64,000 nucleotides of DNA from a virus. Positions 18,376 to 33,695 of the stretch are shown one piece after another (positions within the stretch are counted from its first letter, which is position 1; each line of letters starts with the position of its first letter). Both the position numbers and the translations under genes were made by a program. Below the pieces are notes generated by a model. The model searched no databases, was not told the origin of the DNA, and saw nothing but the letters and a program-made list of their open reading frames with translations. Where the stretch lies: positions 1 through 64,000 of IMG/VR virus record IMGVR_UViG_3300032931_001151, one strand, 5' to 3'.

Positions 18376-18586
18376 TATTAAATTCCTTTAAAAGATAATT
18401 GACGGCGAATTCTTTATTAGAAAGTCCAACATATTTCCGAGAATCTATTGCTTCTTGCGGAACATCAATTTTAACACCATTATTATAGAAGTCAAGAGTT
18501 TGGATATCTAAGGCATTGAATTCTTTGATTATATTAAGAGCAAACTTGAGTGGCTCCAAGTCGTATTTTAGTTTATCCACATCCAC
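18368..18586 (-). CDS. Small hypothetical protein, GTG start
   Basis: A 72-residue protein (VDVDKLKYDLEPLK at its start) with no known family. The ATG of the open frame at 18634 lies inside the radical SAM gene and would give an odd His/Gly-rich extension. The GTG at 18586 has GGAGGG seven bases upstream, and that Shine-Dalgarno is formed by the codons for the Gly/Cys tail of the overlapping radical SAM protein. Start uncertain. Confidence 0.5.
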   Translation of the reverse strand: MDVDKLKYDLEPLKFALNIIKEFNALDIQTLDFYNNGVKIDVPQEAIDSRKYVGLSNKEFAVNYLLKEFNNV

Positions 18587-19661
18587 CCCCACACCCTCCA
18601 CCGCATGATGATGGCCTTGATCCACACCCACCACTATGATAATTACAAGTAGTTGACTTCGTGCTACCTAAAAGTTTCTTGTTAACTTCTTCAATTCCCG
18701 ACAACTTCTCAATTATCTTCTTATGAGAAGTTTCTTGAATCTCCTTATGTGCCTCAAATTCTTTTACGAGATTGGCCCATTTCTCATACCAAAAGGCTCC
18801 ATCGGGTGATGTAGGTTTCATATTAGTATCTACCTCTATCTTTCTAGACCAATCAGCATAAAGTTTGCCATTAGGATGGAATACAAGTTCATATAATTTG
18901 TTAAGGTATTGTGATGGTTCCGGATGTGATCCTTTCCACAATATTTGTTTATCTTTGCTAACTTGAATGGTTGTTCGACATACTGGACAATCATTACTTG
19001 ACTCAATACCCCATCTCTTCGTAAATATTTTTTCTACATTAGTTGGAGACACATCACCAGCCTCTTTACGGAATGAAATTGAACCAACTTCCAAATGTAC
19101 GAAAGCGTAGGCTATCATATGTTGAATAAATGCTTCGGTAGTTGAATCATTAATTATACAATTAATATTGAATTGATACTTATTTCCGTAATTCCTTATT
19201 ATATTCTTAATATTTGGCGTTGTTGGAACTACTTTACTCTTAAATATCTTTTGATTTTCATTATCATCAAAATGATGTCTTGAAATATTAATATGAGTAA
19301 CTACTTCCATAAGTTTCAAGTCATCTTTAAGCCAACTTTCTAATGCCGATCCATTAGTAGTTAGAACGACTCTATCCCATTTTCTATTTGAATTCTTTAT
19401 TGTATGTAGAATTGCACCAAGATGACCACTAATAGTTGGTTCCCCGCCAGAAATAGATAATGCCGGACAAATGCTATAAGGAATTTCATTAAATGCTTTA
19501 ATGAGGGATTGGATGTAATCGGAAGGTGGAACTATTTTACCGTCCTTACTATTCCAAAAACAAAACCCGCACTTAGCATTACAAAAGCCAGGTGTAATAA
19601 TGGTGAAATTAGGTTTATGACCACCTTCCGTGTATAAATCGGTTAGAATATTATATTTCAT
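18573..19661 (-). CDS. Radical SAM protein with Cys/Gly-rich tail
   Basis: A 362-residue radical SAM enzyme. CNAKCGFC (Cys27, Cys31, Cys34) is the canonical CX3CX2C cluster site and SGGEP (71-75) is the SAM-binding GGEP. A CPVC pair lies mid-protein. The last 25 residues contain HSGGCGSRPSSC followed by GGGCGGGCG, five spaced cysteines in glycine, a metal-binding or self-modified tail. The reaction is unknown. It follows two small genes after the promoter at 20325-20352 and its start overlaps the upstream stop. Confidence 0.85.
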   Translation of the reverse strand: MKYNILTDLYTEGGHKPNFTIITPGFCNAKCGFCFWNSKDGKIVPPSDYIQSLIKAFNEIPYSICPALSISGGEPTISGHLGAILHTIKNSNRKWDRVVLTTNGSALESWLKDDLKLMEVVTHINISRHHFDDNENQKIFKSKVVPTTPNIKNIIRNYGNKYQFNINCIINDSTTEAFIQHMIAYAFVHLEVGSISFRKEAGDVSPTNVEKIFTKRWGIESSNDCPVCRTTIQVSKDKQILWKGSHPEPSQYLNKLYELVFHPNGKLYADWSRKIEVDTNMKPTSPDGAFWYEKWANLVKEFEAHKEIQETSHKKIIEKLSGIEEVNKKLLGSTKSTTCNYHSGGCGSRPSSCGGGCGGGCG

Positions 19662-26647: not shown

Positions 26648-26675
26648 ATTATATAAAGAATCTGCAATAAGTCAA
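26648..26675 (-). promoter_or_regulatory. Sigma70-type promoter; -35 overlaps a stop codon
   Basis: Minus strand TTGACT (26675-26670), 16-base spacer, TATAAT (26653-26648), for the pncA operon. The TGA of the gene ending at 26672 lies in the -35 box. Confidence 0.85.
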
Positions 26676-27178
26676 TGATGACTTACTTTTATATGTGGAA
26701 TATGATTAAATAAATCGCCATGTTCAATTGCCGAATTTAACGGGCCATCATTATCTGAAAAATTAAGGGAAACTACAATTTTATCTTTATTTTTTTTCAT
26801 AAAATCTTTATATTTTTTCTCTATGAATTCTTCATGATCTTTTATATACTTCTCATAAGCATCTTTGTACTCTTTGGATTTATAGTCAAGCCCACTAGTA
26901 TATGTGCAATAATCCGGACCATCATCATAGTGGCCGCTTAACTCATTCTTTATTGATTCTTCATCGTTTGGCTTGGCGTCTTGAATTTCATTGTAAACTC
27001 TTTCGGCCACGTCATTTAAACTAAAACATTCCGAACTATAGCACGCCGAGTAAGCAACTTGATCTTTCTTAAAAAGTAACTTTTTAACTTCTTTAATAGT
27101 CGTTGGAAGTTTCTCTAAAGAAACAATAAAAGACGACGAACTTGAATTTGTTACAAACCCGTTACGAAATTTTGCCAT
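26672..27178 (-). CDS. FVTNSSSSSF-family protein, paralogue 4
   Basis: A 168-residue protein starting MAKFRNGFVTNSSSSSFIVS. Only the first 18 or so residues match its three neighbours; the body is acidic and helical with a Tyr-rich segment and a long lysine/glutamate helix. The motif resembles, from memory, small proteins of unknown function in phages and bacteria. Last gene of the radical SAM operon. Confidence 0.75.
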   Translation of the reverse strand: MAKFRNGFVTNSSSSSFIVSLEKLPTTIKEVKKLLFKKDQVAYSACYSSECFSLNDVAERVYNEIQDAKPNDEESIKNELSGHYDDGPDYCTYTSGLDYKSKEYKDAYEKYIKDHEEFIEKKYKDFMKKNKDKIVVSLNFSDNDGPLNSAIEHGDLFNHIPHIKVSHH

Positions 27179-27179
27179 A

Positions 27180-27425
27180 TTATAATTCCTCTACTTTATA
27201 ATCTTTTGGGTTAATCTTTAATTTTTTGAAAAGCGTTTCAATACTATCATTTTCCATAAAAGTAGTACCTTTAAGTTCATTTTCTAAAAATGTAACTTCC
27301 CAAAAATCCCCACAAGTATTGATATATTTCAATATTTTAGTCATTTGGAGATCGGTTAGATTCTTCTTTTGTAGAATGAAACTACTTGAAGAAGAATTAG
27401 TTACAAAGTCACTTCTAAATTTCAT
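27180..27425 (-). CDS. FVTNSSSSSF-family protein, paralogue 3
   Basis: An 81-residue protein starting MKFRSDFVTNSSSSSFILQK, the shortest of the four. The remainder contains two short helices and an acidic end. Its stop is followed after four bases by the next paralogue. Function unknown. Confidence 0.75.
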   Translation of the reverse strand: MKFRSDFVTNSSSSSFILQKKNLTDLQMTKILKYINTCGDFWEVTFLENELKGTTFMENDSIETLFKKLKINPKDYKVEEL

Positions 27426-27428
27426 ACA

Positions 27429-27794
27429 TTATTCCTTTATATATTTTGCAAAATCTTTATATGTTCCAAATTTCCCTTGTATTGTAGCAAGGATTGCCTC
27501 TTTTGTCAACCCTAGATCTTTCATAAGGAATTCCAAGATTGCATCTCTATCCATTTCTTTGAATTGGCAAATTGGGCAACATTTGATATCAACTTCGTAT
27601 GGATAGTCATCATTATCTTCTTTTGCTAAGTCTTCATCAATTAGATATTGTTCATCAAATGTGTGATTAGATTTACAAGTACACATTTGACAATCACTCA
27701 AAGATAGATCCATCCCCGATTCTATTCTACCGGTAACTTGGCAAATGAATGAAGATGAACTTGAATTAGTTACAAACCCGGCTCTGAATTTCAT
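27429..27794 (-). CDS. FVTNSSSSSF-family protein, paralogue 2
   Basis: A 121-residue protein starting MKFRAGFVTNSSSSSFICQV. After the shared N-terminus it has CQMCTC and CCPICQF cysteine groups, a probable zinc ribbon, then an acidic helix-rich tail. The distinct body next to an identical N-terminus suggests the motif is a detachable module. Confidence 0.75.
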   Translation of the reverse strand: MKFRAGFVTNSSSSSFICQVTGRIESGMDLSLSDCQMCTCKSNHTFDEQYLIDEDLAKEDNDDYPYEVDIKCCPICQFKEMDRDAILEFLMKDLGLTKEAILATIQGKFGTYKDFAKYIKE

Positions 27795-27797
27795 GTA

Positions 27798-28193
27798 TTA
27801 TTCCTTTTCTAGTAGAATTATGTTTTTCCCGTCACATATATCATTCATTTGGTCATTAAGTATATCGTTATGATAACTAATGCACTTTTTGTATACCACA
27901 TACCCATCATTGATTAATTTTCTATATTTATCAATATCGGAAGTAGTCATACAAATATATTCTCTTTTTAAATAACTATTTAAGTCGGATTCAGTCGAAA
28001 ACAACTTTTCGGCCTCATGTGTATCATTACTATCTTCAAATTCAAACATTTGCTTAATAGAGTTAATAATAAACCTCTTCCAAATCTCATTGTCAACTTC
28101 AATAAACTTATCAATATTATCTAATCCACCTTTAACGGCTATAATGAAACTTGATGAACTTGAATTAGTTACAAAACCATTACGGATTTTCAT
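27798..28193 (-). CDS. FVTNSSSSSF-family protein, paralogue 1
   Basis: A 131-residue protein starting MKIRNGFVTNSSSSSFIIAV. The ATG at 28193 overlaps the TGA of the radical SAM gene (ATGA) and AAGGAG lies five bases upstream, so translation is probably coupled. The body is acidic, with two Cys residues in an MCMTT-like region (ICMTTSDIDKY). Function unknown. Confidence 0.75.
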   Translation of the reverse strand: MKIRNGFVTNSSSSSFIIAVKGGLDNIDKFIEVDNEIWKRFIINSIKQMFEFEDSNDTHEAEKLFSTESDLNSYLKREYICMTTSDIDKYRKLINDGYVVYKKCISYHNDILNDQMNDICDGKNIILLEKE

Positions 28194-29308
28194 ATACACT
28201 CCTTATTACAAATGTTTATATCTGGAACTAGAACACAAGGCTTGCAAGTATCAATGTGGTGCTTGCACTTTTGACATTTACCAGATTCTAATCCAAATTG
28301 TTGTTTCTTCCTAAACAATTCAAATTGTAGACTCTCCCACGCATCTTCAAGAGATACATCATTTAGATTTACACCATATGCTTGTTTCTGATCAAATGAA
28401 CAAGGACAAAAAATACCATTTGGACTAATATATGCGGAGAAACATCCCGAGTCACAACTTGAGACACTTTGAGAAATAACATTCTTCATATATTTACCAA
28501 TAAACATACACGAACATGAGTCAAACCCAATCTTAAACGACAACGGTTTATCAAGCAACTCAAAAAGTTCATTCAAACTTGGTTCTTTACCGGTAATAAC
28601 ATTACTTAAATCACCTTGACCAATATTCTTATAGTTCAATATAATAAGAGCATTTACACCTTTAGGTACTTTATTCTCTTTAATAATTGAAATTAGTTCA
28701 TCAATTGTTTTATTGGATAGAACATAATGAATATTTGTGGTTACACCGGCATCAATGAATTTATTTAAAGCATTGATAGTATGATCTTGTCTCTGCCAAC
28801 TACACGCAACTGCGCCGGCATATTGTTTAGTAATTTGGACCTCTTCATCCGTTAATCCAATTCCACTTGTAGTGTAATTAGGGGCTATATGATTATCCCT
28901 ACACAACTTCATAAACTCTTTAAAGTTTTCATGTTTATTTGGGTCGCCACGACCCCCTAATGCTATTTCGTAAACCTTTCCAACACATTGACTTATGATT
29001 TTTGAAAACACATCATAAGTCATATTTGGCTCATCTTTAATAAAACCAGATTGATAACAATCAATCCCACCTTGCTTGCATACACCCCTTGCTTTACAGT
29101 GACCCATTATACCAATGTCAAGCAAGTGAGGAACCGAACTCATAAAAGGATCTTTCCCCGTATCTTTGCCATTCTCAATGATTCCACTACGGTAATAAAA
29201 CCCAGTAGTCATATTGAAGGATGACTTAAAGTTATAAATCTTGTCGTAAGAATGGATAACACCATCCTTAACAAAAGATGTAACTTTTTGGGTATCACAA
29301 AGGATCAT
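28190..29308 (-). CDS. Radical SAM/SPASM-like protein with unusual cysteine spacing
   Basis: A 372-residue protein resembling radical SAM/SPASM enzymes. The presumed cluster cysteines Cys71, Cys77 and Cys84 (GHCKARGVCKQGGIDCYQ) have CX5CX6C spacing instead of CX3CX2C, and ALGGRGDP replaces GGEP. The C-terminal third has the SPASM-like set CDSGC, FCPCSF, CQKC and CKPC for auxiliary clusters. SPASM enzymes often modify peptides or proteins. It lies between a 303-residue unknown protein and four FVTNSSSSSF proteins, with ATGA overlaps on both sides. Confidence 0.75.
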   Translation of the reverse strand: MILCDTQKVTSFVKDGVIHSYDKIYNFKSSFNMTTGFYYRSGIIENGKDTGKDPFMSSVPHLLDIGIMGHCKARGVCKQGGIDCYQSGFIKDEPNMTYDVFSKIISQCVGKVYEIALGGRGDPNKHENFKEFMKLCRDNHIAPNYTTSGIGLTDEEVQITKQYAGAVACSWQRQDHTINALNKFIDAGVTTNIHYVLSNKTIDELISIIKENKVPKGVNALIILNYKNIGQGDLSNVITGKEPSLNELFELLDKPLSFKIGFDSCSCMFIGKYMKNVISQSVSSCDSGCFSAYISPNGIFCPCSFDQKQAYGVNLNDVSLEDAWESLQFELFRKKQQFGLESGKCQKCKHHIDTCKPCVLVPDINICNKECI

Positions 29309-30216
29309 GGAGTCCCTTCTTTTAGTACTTGAATTGTTTTATTTAGTTTATTAGTAACATTAGATAATATGGTTTGAGTTTTTCGCATTGACTCAACCTT
29401 AGTCAATCTTTCATATATATCCGACAACTCTTGAATGAGAACCTTTCTCTCCGTTTTGCTTACTAACTTATTCTCTTCAACAAATAGAATATCTTTAATT
29501 ATTTTTTTAATTCCGTCTTTATACTCCTTTAACTTAGTAACACACTCTTCATACGTGCCACGGAAAGAGCATACTTTCTCATAATTCTCTTTTGTAAAAA
29601 TATAATTTCCATTCATCTTGGCATACTTAATTCCAGAATGTGAAGCATTTTGAATATAATGACCTTTAGTTGATATTTTTTCATCATCGCTATAAAACTC
29701 AACTTCAAGTTCCTTACAAATCTCCTTTAAAGCATCTTGAGGGGAGATAGACATATTGCAAATAGGGTTATCAATTTCCCCACCCAATTGCGCCAATGGA
29801 ACGATTTCTTTATACTCCGAATAAATTACACCACTCACATTGAATGGAACATCTTCAAAAACCTCTTTATGTTGATAATGAGGTTCCCAAGTTTTAATGA
29901 ATTTCTTGTAAGCATATTCATCATCAAGGTTGTCAAACTCCCAATCTTCTTCTCCTTCATAACCTTTATTCTTTAATTCTTCACTCTCTTTTTTATATTC
30001 CATAATCATTTTAATAGACCCTTTCGGGCCATCATAATGAGTAATAGACGATATGGTAACTTTCTTAACTACTTTAATTGGAAGTATATGCAATTCATAT
30101 TCAACTGGATACCCATCACCTTTATCAATAGTGATTCTATCGTTAATAACATAGTTGCCATAATTTTTTAGAGTAAAAATGTAAGTACCCATGCGAGTCT
30201 TTAGAAAATTAATCAT
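29305..30216 (-). CDS. Hypothetical protein, first gene of radical SAM/FVTNSSSSSF operon
   Basis: A 303-residue protein of unknown function. The first 60 residues are beta rich, the middle is acidic and aromatic (EEDWEFDNLDDEYAYKKF), and about 220-295 is a charged coiled coil. It is the promoter-proximal gene after 30236-30262 and overlaps the radical SAM gene by four bases. A recognition or scaffold role for the operon is possible but unsupported by a family match. Confidence 0.65.
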   Translation of the reverse strand: MINFLKTRMGTYIFTLKNYGNYVINDRITIDKGDGYPVEYELHILPIKVVKKVTISSITHYDGPKGSIKMIMEYKKESEELKNKGYEGEEDWEFDNLDDEYAYKKFIKTWEPHYQHKEVFEDVPFNVSGVIYSEYKEIVPLAQLGGEIDNPICNMSISPQDALKEICKELEVEFYSDDEKISTKGHYIQNASHSGIKYAKMNGNYIFTKENYEKVCSFRGTYEECVTKLKEYKDGIKKIIKDILFVEENKLVSKTERKVLIQELSDIYERLTKVESMRKTQTILSNVTNKLNKTIQVLKEGTP

Positions 30217-30235
30217 TTATAGTTCCTTTAAGACT

Positions 30236-30262
30236 ATTATACGACGAATTAAGAGAAGTCAA
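30236..30262 (-). promoter_or_regulatory. Sigma70-type promoter; -35 overlaps a stop codon
   Basis: Minus strand TTGACT (30262-30257), 15-base spacer, TATAAT (30241-30236), driving the six-gene unit 30216-26672. The TGA of the Nudix gene lies inside the -35 box. Confidence 0.8.
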
Positions 30263-31287: not shown

Positions 31288-31787
31288 ACACTATGTATGT
31301 CACCATCTTTTATGAGGATAGTAGGTCCTAATGGTTCTGGTTGAGTGGGATTCTTTAGTCTACCCAATGTCATATGGAATTTCAATTTTTTACCATTAGT
31401 GTATAACCCATAATATTCTCTCAAATCTGCCAATTCTTCACAATAAATATTCATCCAAGCATGTCTACCATTATTCCAAGAAATATAATTCCCATAATAG
31501 AATTCAACTTCTTTTCCATTGTTGAATCTCCATTTATCCACATTTTGTGTTGGAGTTTCCCCTTTCACGACGGAACTATGGAATCCCCAAAGAGTATTAG
31601 GCTTATGAATTGGCTCACCTTCCTTTTGCATAAACCAAGTATAATATTTGTATATTTCTTCGTCTAATTTTAGTAAGCACCAATACGGTGCGTAATGTTT
31701 AGTATTGATTCCTGGATCATATACCAAAACACCTTTTGATTTGAATTGGAATATATGATCTCCAACAATAAGAGGTTTAATGCTCAT
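31284..31787 (-). CDS. 2H phosphoesterase-like protein (second copy)
   Basis: A 167-residue protein with two H-x-S/T motifs in the 2H arrangement: WGFHSSVVKGE (His70, Ser72) and KFHMTLGRL (His138, Thr140). The surrounding pattern resembles phage 2H proteins with a GxHxSVVxGE first motif. It differs clearly from the 2H gene at 11614, so the phage carries two distinct types. It is last in the operon with a glycosyltransferase and radical SAM protein. Substrate unknown. Confidence 0.7.
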   Translation of the reverse strand: MSIKPLIVGDHIFQFKSKGVLVYDPGINTKHYAPYWCLLKLDEEIYKYYTWFMQKEGEPIHKPNTLWGFHSSVVKGETPTQNVDKWRFNNGKEVEFYYGNYISWNNGRHAWMNIYCEELADLREYYGLYTNGKKLKFHMTLGRLKNPTQPEPLGPTILIKDGDIHSV

Positions 31788-32740
31788 AGTACTTTCTTAA
31801 TAGCATTAAAGTATCCATCAAGCATCTCATCAAACTTATCATTTGGGTCAAATGTCTTTAATGACTTTCTAATATCATCGAATTTACTTAAATAGTTCTT
31901 AAATCCTTGTTCTAGTTGATACTCGGTCAAGTGTGGAACATATTCTATAAAATCAAAATTCTCAATTTCGGGAATAGGAACTCCGTAGTTTCCAACCATC
32001 TCATGCACTCCACCAGATTGTGCATAAAGAATCGGCAAACCACAACTAATGGCTTGAGGGACTGTTTTTGTTGCCGCATCTCTATAAGATAGGTTAACAA
32101 ATCCATCAGAAGAATTAAATATATTAGCCATTTCTTTAGGATCTGAAATATAGCCATATTTAGTTACATTACTTGAAGTTCTAATAAAATAACTATTTTT
32201 TCCTATCAAATTTAGAAGAAATTGATCTTTAAACATGGAAGCCAACTTAATAATACTCAAGTATCTCTTTTCTTCTCTATCCCAATCAGTAGCACTAGCA
32301 CATAATACAAGTTTTTTATTTAATGGGTATTCAAACCTACGAAATACTTTAGGATCTACCCAATGTCTAACTACACAATAATCCTTTAGGGGTTGATTAT
32401 AAGTATTGAAGAAACTATCACGGCTATAATTAGTTATAAAGATTACATTATCCGCTTGTTGAGCTGCCCTATTTAACGGGTGGTTTCTTTGAACAAAATC
32501 TTTATGCCAAAATACCCCATCCATTCTCTTTACTAGTGGTTTTTTTAAATCTAGAATATATTTTGGAAATACATCGTTAGTAATAATTACATCCGCAATA
32601 TGTGGATCATTGACAAATGTAAATCCATAATACTCACAATTTTCGTGTAAGTATCTCATAACATCATTAACAAGTGGGCCACCACCATTTCTATGTGGTG
32701 GCCTTTCACTTGAATTTGAGCAATCAAATATTTTTATCAT
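31784..32740 (-). CDS. GT-B glycosyltransferase (GT4-like)
   Basis: A 318-residue GT-B fold protein. The C-terminal half shows the group 1 pattern: LVLCASATDWDREEKR, LNLIGKNSYF, then SSDGFVNLSYRDAATKTVPQ followed by AISCGLPILYAQSGG, the donor-nucleotide site. It probably transfers a sugar from a nucleotide donor; the acceptor is unknown. I set the start at 32740 (MIKIFDCSNSSERPPH), inside the end of the radical SAM gene, because the preceding residues look non-coding. Confidence 0.8.
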   Translation of the reverse strand: MIKIFDCSNSSERPPHRNGGGPLVNDVMRYLHENCEYYGFTFVNDPHIADVIITNDVFPKYILDLKKPLVKRMDGVFWHKDFVQRNHPLNRAAQQADNVIFITNYSRDSFFNTYNQPLKDYCVVRHWVDPKVFRRFEYPLNKKLVLCASATDWDREEKRYLSIIKLASMFKDQFLLNLIGKNSYFIRTSSNVTKYGYISDPKEMANIFNSSDGFVNLSYRDAATKTVPQAISCGLPILYAQSGGVHEMVGNYGVPIPEIENFDFIEYVPHLTEYQLEQGFKNYLSKFDDIRKSLKTFDPNDKFDEMLDGYFNAIKKVL

Positions 32741-33695
32741 GAATACTCTTGAATTTATTATTGTATTCCGAACAAACATCCAAACATTGACGAGAACAAA
32801 TAGGGTCTTTATGTGTATCGTGATTTAGTCCCCATTCAACTCTCTCTTGTCGCATATTAGGACCAATCTTGCCGATTGGATTGCCATGCTCTCTCATATA
32901 GATTACACATGGGAAATGATAATCCCCACATACAACACTATCATCTTGAATTAGCCAGCAACGATGCGAATCGCCATCCTTTAATCCCCTAACATTAATA
33001 TCATTCTTAATGTTATTAACACGATACTTAAGAATTGGATGTGCATTAAGAATATCCTCGGAAATTCCAATAACACCTTTCAATACACTATTAAATTGTG
33101 CAGCGGAAATAATACGAATATCTGCAACCCCAAGACTATGAGCATATTCAACAATTCCTTGAATTTCCCCAACATTGGTTTCGGTTAAAACAACTCCTAC
33201 GGTAACATAAGTTCTTGAAGCAAGATACTTAATGTTATTTGAAATGGTATTAAACTTCCCAGATACTCCAGCCATAGCGTCGGCAAATGAAGAACAACAA
33301 GCATCTAGAGAAATTGAAAAGTCATTTGCTCCTGCATCAACTAATTTTTGATACATTTCCGTTGATGTGGAACCATTTGAAGAAATAGCAATATGCTCAA
33401 CATTGTTCTTTTTACAATGTTCAACTAATTCAATCAATCGAGGATATATGGTTGGTTCTCCACCAGAAAAACGAACATTCTTAAGTCCATCTTTAATCCA
33501 ATCATTTAGAACAAACATTGCTTTATCAAAATCCATATCTCCAAGGCAATCATTACGAAGCCCACGGCAATAAGGACATTTAAAATTGCAACGATTAGTC
33601 AAAATCATTTCAGTTCTATACATTGGCGAGGTTGGACTAGCCAACCTTGCTCTCTCATCCGATAGGGTATAGAATCCAATATTCTCAAGTTTCAT
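32724..33695 (-). CDS. Radical SAM/SPASM-like protein
   Basis: A 323-residue radical SAM enzyme with canonical CNFKCPYC (Cys36, Cys40, Cys43) and SGGEPT, so MoaA-like in the core. The C-terminus carries extra cysteines (CWLI, CGDYHFPC, CSRQCLDVC) like SPASM or twitch auxiliary-cluster domains. Substrate unknown. First gene after the promoter at 33716-33743 and overlapping the glycosyltransferase, so the two may act on one product. Confidence 0.85.
   Translation of the reverse strand: MKLENIGFYTLSDERARLASPTSPMYRTEMILTNRCNFKCPYCRGLRNDCLGDMDFDKAMFVLNDWIKDGLKNVRFSGGEPTIYPRLIELVEHCKKNNVEHIAISSNGSTSTEMYQKLVDAGANDFSISLDACCSSFADAMAGVSGKFNTISNNIKYLASRTYVTVGVVLTETNVGEIQGIVEYAHSLGVADIRIISAAQFNSVLKGVIGISEDILNAHPILKYRVNNIKNDINVRGLKDGDSHRCWLIQDDSVVCGDYHFPCVIYMREHGNPIGKIGPNMRQERVEWGLNHDTHKDPICSRQCLDVCSEYNNKFKSIHDKNI

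Follow-up and report, generated by a model that had tools for sequence, protein, structure and literature searches.

We analysed the first 64,000 nucleotides of the IMG/VR virus record IMGVR_UViG_3300032931_001151 (positions 1 to 64,000, hereafter the window), part of a 214.2-kb phage record, and studied an operon of six tightly packed genes that runs on the minus strand from 30216 to 26672. It encodes a radical S-adenosylmethionine (SAM) protein with a SPASM domain and four proteins that begin with the same serine-rich tag, FVTNSSSSSF. An original prediction, made from the sequence alone, had described these six genes with two ATGA overlaps and had proposed that the enzyme acts on the shared motif. 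The genes and both overlaps were found as described:

29305..30216, minus strand: P0002, 303-residue protein, first gene of the operon; weak match to phrog_17099
28190..29308, minus strand: P0001, radical-SAM/SPASM enzyme of 372 residues, assigned from phrog_7293, PF13186, a cysteine alignment and a fold model
27798..28193, minus strand: P0003, tagged protein 1, 131 residues (MKIRNGFVTNSSSSSFI); cargo without relatives among the collected set
27429..27794, minus strand: P0004, tagged protein 2, 121 residues (MKFRAGFVTNSSSSSFI); cargo of a cysteine-rich family (SGxDxxLSxxxMxxCxxxHxF) that looks like a zinc ribbon
27180..27425, minus strand: P0005, tagged protein 3, 81 residues (MKFRSDFVTNSSSSSFI); cargo whose family has members in several phages
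26672..27178, minus strand: P0006, tagged protein 4, 168 residues (MAKFRNGFVTNSSSSSFI); phrog_7397, family with a C-terminal EHGxxFxxLPHIxISHH

Through its two ATGA overlaps the radical-SAM gene is joined to the 303-residue gene before it and to the first tagged gene after it. Between the tagged genes the gaps, predicted at one to four bases, are indeed short and measure 3, 3 and 1 bases.

A shared N-terminal tag on different cargo proteins

The common start of the four products extends over 16-17 residues, M(A)K-[IF]-R-x-[GD]-FVTNSSSSSF, close to the 18 or so first proposed. The entire 214.2-kb record has four matches to the pattern FV[ST]NSSSSSF, all at this operon, and none to the same pattern read backwards. 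Serine codons are mixed across the four tagged genes (TCA, AGT, TCT and TCG), and the TCN and AGY classes also alternate in the wider set of tagged genes. This variation indicates that selection acts on the protein and not on the DNA. A repeat maintained at the DNA or RNA level was ruled out, since the serine codons switch between TCN and AGY.

We then considered the tagged proteins collected from other genomes. Among 211 tagged open reading frames, found with a start pattern that did not demand the core, the asparagine and the first two serines were present in all 211; the third serine was replaced by alanine or valine in three, and the fourth and fifth varied widely. The "serine run" is therefore really an N-S-S core followed by a looser run, and all contexts have in common the core (aromatic)-x-[ST]-N-S-S, with F, Y or H as the aromatic residue. 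The 224 distinct proteins carrying this first type of tag, roughly 80-270 residues long, fell into 71 cargo clusters, and no Pfam domain was detected in the cargo of 82 representatives. The idea that the proteins diverge completely after the tag needs correction in one respect, as three of the four window cargo proteins belong to families present in other phages. A tblastn search with the bare motif peptide gave no match, probably because the serine run was masked as low complexity.

P0006 was followed further. It matched phrog_7397 (E = 1.4e-13), listed as of unknown function, and its family comprises 23 members with 24-34% identity to P0006, conserved in the tag and in the C-terminal EHGxxFxxLPHIxISHH segment, which may form a metal site. 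In the structural model, residues 1-10 had a mean predicted local distance difference test score (pLDDT) of 53, against 91 for the protein as a whole, and it is the best-conserved region of P0006 that contains these low-confidence residues. An N-terminus that is conserved yet apparently flexible has the look of an enzyme target or recognition site. A fold search of the Protein Data Bank with the P0006 model gave no significant match. A weak, below-cut-off match of P0006 to a PqqD-like recognition domain (E = 0.0077) was judged to be due to chance; no search was aimed at the recognition elements (RREs) of ribosomally synthesised and post-translationally modified peptides (RiPPs).

The radical-SAM/SPASM enzyme

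P0001 matched phrog_7293 (E = 1e-23), likewise listed as of unknown function, and the SPASM domain anticipated from the sequence was recovered with PF13186 (E = 5.6e-07, above its cut-off). The radical-cluster cysteines are C71, C77 and C84 (CX5CX6C), and those assigned to auxiliary clusters are C265, C285, C303 and C348. In an alignment of 42 sequences all of these were invariant except C77, which was nearly so. P0001 thus has the radical-SAM fold with its three cluster cysteines, together with a SPASM/twitch auxiliary domain. The CX5CX6C spacing departs from the canonical CX3CX2C; the nearest relatives have CX7CX6C or CX5CX3C, and in most of the remaining viral relatives, which are more distant, the spacing is CX3CX2C or CX7CX2C.

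The predicted structure of P0001 was confident (mean pLDDT 86.5, predicted template modelling score 0.88). Its top fold match was SuiB (Foldseek E = 3.7e-14), which has been solved with and without peptide, and further matches included CteB, PqqE, SkfB and anSME, as well as enzymes acting on small molecules (viperin, BtrN and BlsE). Judged from this model, the best matches are mostly peptide-modifying radical-SAM enzymes. None of the NCBIfam maturase models passed, the best reaching 44.7 bits for P0001 against a cut-off of 380, and the relatives of the enzyme also stayed under the equivalog cut-offs shown. The prokaryotic viperin (pVip) models gave no clear match to P0001 (E = 0.0064), and no family covering the enzyme or the tagged proteins was found in Pfam or NCBIfam.

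Relatives of the enzyme were found in 173 GenBank records, including a Vibrio phage and T4-like phages of Klebsiella, Enterobacter, Cronobacter, Citrobacter and Escherichia. A search of viral contigs with P0001 alone gave no match; with the required alignment of three sequences as query, relatives were recovered in at least 91 contigs.

Enzyme and tag occur together

The original prediction had named the linkage between FVTNSSSSSF proteins and this enzyme family as its test, and we examined it in both directions. All counts below rest on the chosen motif patterns; contigs may be fragments, and assemblies bearing bacterial names may include phage contigs. Starting from the enzyme, loci were dereplicated at 85% enzyme identity, giving 56 loci; this is the only dereplicated set, and many contigs in the others are related. 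Tagged genes lay in the flank of 49 of the 56 loci, with 1-11 per locus, and all 158 of them (158/158, 49 loci) shared the strand of the enzyme. The nearest tagged gene was less than 100 bp from the enzyme in 17 of these 49 loci and less than 1 kb away in 39. Tagged starts near the enzyme followed MK[IV][RK]-x-[GDS]-[FY]-V-[ST]-N-S-S-S, and the reversed motif was absent from all loci.

For the converse search, viral contigs were found by the motif alone, and records of at least 100 kb were then scanned with the enzyme profile. The enzyme was present (E < 1e-80) in 27 of 30 records found with DFVTNSS and in 25 of 30 found with GFVSNSSxxxF, that is, in 52/60 records, or 38/46 once 14 records known from the enzyme search were removed. 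The linkage is thus strongly confirmed in both directions; a lack of the enzyme in most records with tagged proteins, which would have spoken against the prediction, was not seen. An earlier, smaller motif-first set gave 8/11; two of the records without the enzyme were viral, and both are fragments of about 55 kb. The reversed-peptide pattern had no match in 2.9 million viral contigs, against at least 120 for the forward pattern, and the enzyme was found in none of 38 random viral records, although these controls were smaller (at most 95 kb).

The residue at position -1 of the tag matched the enzyme clade throughout, being threonine in 34/34 cases of one clade and serine in 15/15 of the other, a pattern that fits co-evolution. 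Large phages with the pairing number in the hundreds, and a few plasmids of bacteria also have it. Cultured phages with the enzyme or its sister (see below) include RB43, RB16, Lw1, KP27, Microcystis phage LMM01 and Salmonella phage Arash, and tagged proteins were directly seen in KP27, LMM01 and Arash; the system can therefore be tested now.

The first gene of the operon did not share this behaviour. The 303-residue protein P0002, which had been counted as part of the system, was ruled out as a third component since no relative of it was found beside any other copy of the enzyme; it lies outside the conserved module.

A sister motif pairs with its own enzyme

A related motif, VFETNSSSxHS, was first seen in Microcystis phage LMM01 near a gene annotated as "Fe-S oxidoreductase" and proved common in viral contigs. 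The profile of the first enzyme type gave only distant matches in 30 records with the sister motif (best E = 4.5e-15). A second enzyme subfamily was present on the same piece in 58 of 80 short sister-motif loci and adjoins the tagged genes among the loci listed:

L441-L450, L119:7884-8801, L321-L400: sister system, VFETNSSSxHS proteins with a radical-SAM subfamily of about 300 residues

The sister enzyme keeps the three radical-cluster cysteines, and the auxiliary-cluster cysteines are absent. In 97 unique starts of this second type, T, N, the first serine and the histidine were present in 97/97 and the second and third serines in 96, counts that are biased by the seed pattern. Since these records lack the first enzyme type and carry their own subfamily, they provide a size-matched control for specificity: the type of motif pairs with the type of enzyme.

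Plasmids, fusions and a spirochaete genome

On plasmids of Agrobacterium, Rhizobium and Rhodobacter, the gene for a relative of the enzyme is directly preceded by one for a protein of 131-132 residues starting with MK[IL]KxDFVSNSSSTSF. Upstream of this pair is a gene whose product has a SMEK domain and resembles Avs2 STAND NTPases (L111:1479-5915, L113:2577-7032, L114:2583-7035), a neighbour that suggests a putative conflict or defence island on these alphaproteobacterial plasmids. The plasmid enzyme matched the prokaryotic viperin models (E = 4e-12).

Two fusions were found. In the Methylobacterium plasmid pVL1_2 the tag (RIGHATNSSSSHS) forms the N-terminus of the enzyme itself (L115:5572-6897), and Salmonella phage Arash also encodes a tag-enzyme fusion (QIRYGFATNSSSSHS), annotated as "methyltransferase" (L571:2995-4425). 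In a spirochaete genome, a small protein (MKIIRKLSGFTTNSSASSEW) with a GFTTNSSASS tag, an acidic linker and a C-terminal hydrophobic stretch is encoded by a gene that overlaps a radical-SAM/SPASM gene (L572:1047-2685). A scan of genome contigs gave only three matches, all in Spirochaetia/Treponema assemblies, perhaps phage sequence binned with bacteria.

A candidate protein-modification module

Linkage in both directions, its recurrence in independent contexts, the two fusions and the sister pair together favour, above other readings, an enzyme that acts on the tagged proteins. We propose, with a probability of roughly 0.7, that the operon encodes a post-translational modification module in which a single enzyme acts on the flexible tail at the N-terminus of each of many cargo proteins, in the style of RiPP biosynthesis. 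The radical-SAM/twitch-SPASM enzyme would recognise the tail through its basic MKIR-x-[GD] segment and the F-x-[ST]-N-S-S-S that follows. Its [4Fe-4S] cluster would cleave SAM to give a 5'-deoxyadenosyl radical, which would abstract a hydrogen from a residue of the aromatic-x-[ST]-N-S-S core. The outcome would be an altered N-terminus on every cargo protein, the same enzyme serving the 1-11 cargo proteins of its locus. Catalysis on the tag and the chemistry installed there are what we infer from these data; at a guess, the most likely outcome is that the aromatic residue takes part in a small intramolecular crosslink or that an asparagine or serine is oxidised or otherwise altered. A crosslink at the aromatic residue at -3 would recall the cyclophane-forming FxS-type enzymes. 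A role in host takeover or in conflict would be a natural guess, the latter from the plasmid context. As regards the target first proposed, the serine-rich motif, the strict part is confined to N-S-S.

Several observations weigh against this proposal. The flanks of seven of the 56 enzyme loci contained no tagged gene, although some are partly fragments; one of these exceptions is of the KP15 type, and in the related phage KP27 about 20 kb lie between the enzyme gene and two tagged genes. Eight of the 60 large motif records had no enzyme, and the aromatic residue is replaced by E or N in a few tags. The agreement between the -1 residue and the enzyme clade could stem from one ancient event. The cluster cysteines of the window enzyme are unusually spaced and its activity is a prediction, and without auxiliary cysteines in the sister enzymes the chemistry of the two types may differ. 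The neighbourhood of the enzyme yielded no conserved peptidase or transporter and no RiPP recognition domain, RREs not having been the aim of any search. The evidence is genomic or predicted throughout.

Alternatively, the tag could serve for docking. The tagged proteins would then be regulators or subunits that attach through it to the enzyme, or to some partner of phage or host origin common to them all; the enzyme would act on something else, such as a nucleotide or a lipid, and leave the tag unmodified. A single enzyme with many tagged proteins would also fit a hub with its adaptors, and the viperin, BtrN and BlsE fold matches, like the pVip match of the plasmid enzyme, are in keeping with a small-molecule substrate. 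However, the best fold matches of P0001 are peptide cyclases and maturases, the invariant core lies in or beside a tail of low predicted confidence, and the fusions place the tag on the enzyme itself, where a pure adaptor does not need it. We therefore regard docking as unlikely.

We give still less credit to a leader-type tag that is recognised only, the modified residues lying downstream in the cargo (in the Cys-rich or EHG...SHH segments) in the manner of classical RiPPs. A conserved N-terminus with a variable remainder is RiPP-like, and two cargo families do have conserved Cys- or His-rich segments, but no downstream site is common to the 71 cargo clusters, in all of which N-S-S is invariant, and no leader peptidase recurs near the enzyme. 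The suggestion that the common N-terminus is a structural element or a relic of duplication, brought near the enzyme by ordinary clustering of phage genes and functionally uncoupled from it, could draw on the frequent tandem arrangement of tagged genes, some clearly duplicated (L062), and on part of the tag possibly beginning a beta-strand, but is largely refuted and very improbable given that the coupling recurs in unrelated contexts and at the level of whole records in the motif-first set, that enzyme type matches motif type, that fusions exist, and that N-S-S stayed fixed while the cargo diverged.

Relation to known systems

A radical-SAM/SPASM enzyme that acts on substrates encoded beside it is a known arrangement, that of the RiPPs. 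The proposed module resembles SuiB, the sactisynthases CteB and SkfB, and PqqE in its fold, in its SPASM/twitch cysteines and in an adjoining substrate family with a common N-terminal sequence. It differs from radical-SAM peptide maturases in that the putative substrates are whole proteins, up to 11 per locus, that the tag is at the extreme N-terminus and that the genes are in phage genomes; unlike in radical-SAM RiPP systems, there is no short precursor, and a recurrent leader peptidase or transporter was not found nearby. anSME, also a radical-SAM/SPASM enzyme, modifies one Cys or Ser in whole proteins and recognises a motif of the [CS]-x-P/A-x-R type inside sulfatases; the present tag has no such motif and its cargo no Pfam domain. 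In NTP-dependent conflict systems, an FxSxx peptide effector is encoded beside a radical-SAM/SPASM gene (eLife 2020, PMC7159879). The likeness lies in an F-x-S-type motif next to such a gene, and on the plasmids in the Avs2-like STAND NTPase nearby; here, in contrast, the motif is an N-terminal F-x-[ST]-N-S-S-S, found mainly in phages, and the cargo behind it is diverse and apparently folded.

PHROG 7293 and PHROG 7397, matched by the enzyme and by P0006, are listed without a stated connection to each other. In the open literature we found nothing describing the motif, the phage radical-SAM enzymes, either partner or the pair, and the KP15/KP27 genome paper does not mention a radical-SAM enzyme or the present gene products under the names searched. 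More tentatively, and at somewhat less than an even chance, the module could be a dedicated protein-tagging system of phages and some mobile plasmids, in which enzyme subtypes (at least two) with matching tags install the same unusual modification on folded effectors. The modified tail would then be functional, as a reactive group, a metal site or an address label, and the system would represent a previously undescribed class of post-translational modification, distinct from RiPPs.

With enzyme and tag both defined, hundreds of phage proteins that lack annotation can now be tested as a single system. If the proposed activity is real, phages would be shown for the first time, as far as we found, to encode a radical-SAM system for protein modification, in which a single enzyme serves many protein substrates. 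It would also imply new radical chemistry on serine/asparagine-rich peptides, possibly of use in protein engineering since the tag sits on varied cargo, and would offer a lead into functions in phage takeover or plasmid conflict.

Operon boundaries and other genes of the window

Two promoter-like sequences had been taken to bracket the operon:

30236..30262, minus strand: TTGACT-15-TATAAT, upstream of the operon; read directly, the scan (spacers of 16-18 only) listing an offset match
26648..26675, minus strand: TTGACT-16-TATAAT, 11/12, before the next gene; from the promoter scan

Both sites are present. Promoter-like sites number 16 here, against 20 expected from shuffled sequence, and because consensus matches thus occur at background frequency and the upstream spacer is short (15), the boundaries are only plausible and were not used as evidence. 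The gene that follows the 26648..26675 site encodes a protein that is isochorismatase/nicotinamidase-like by appearance.

Two further radical-SAM genes lie in the window. The first (18573-19661) encodes a protein with a Cys/Gly-rich C-terminal tail (CGSRPSSCGGGCGGGCG). The other (32724-33695), the third radical-SAM gene, overlaps a glycosyltransferase-like gene within 31784-33695, possibly a second small pathway of the same phage.

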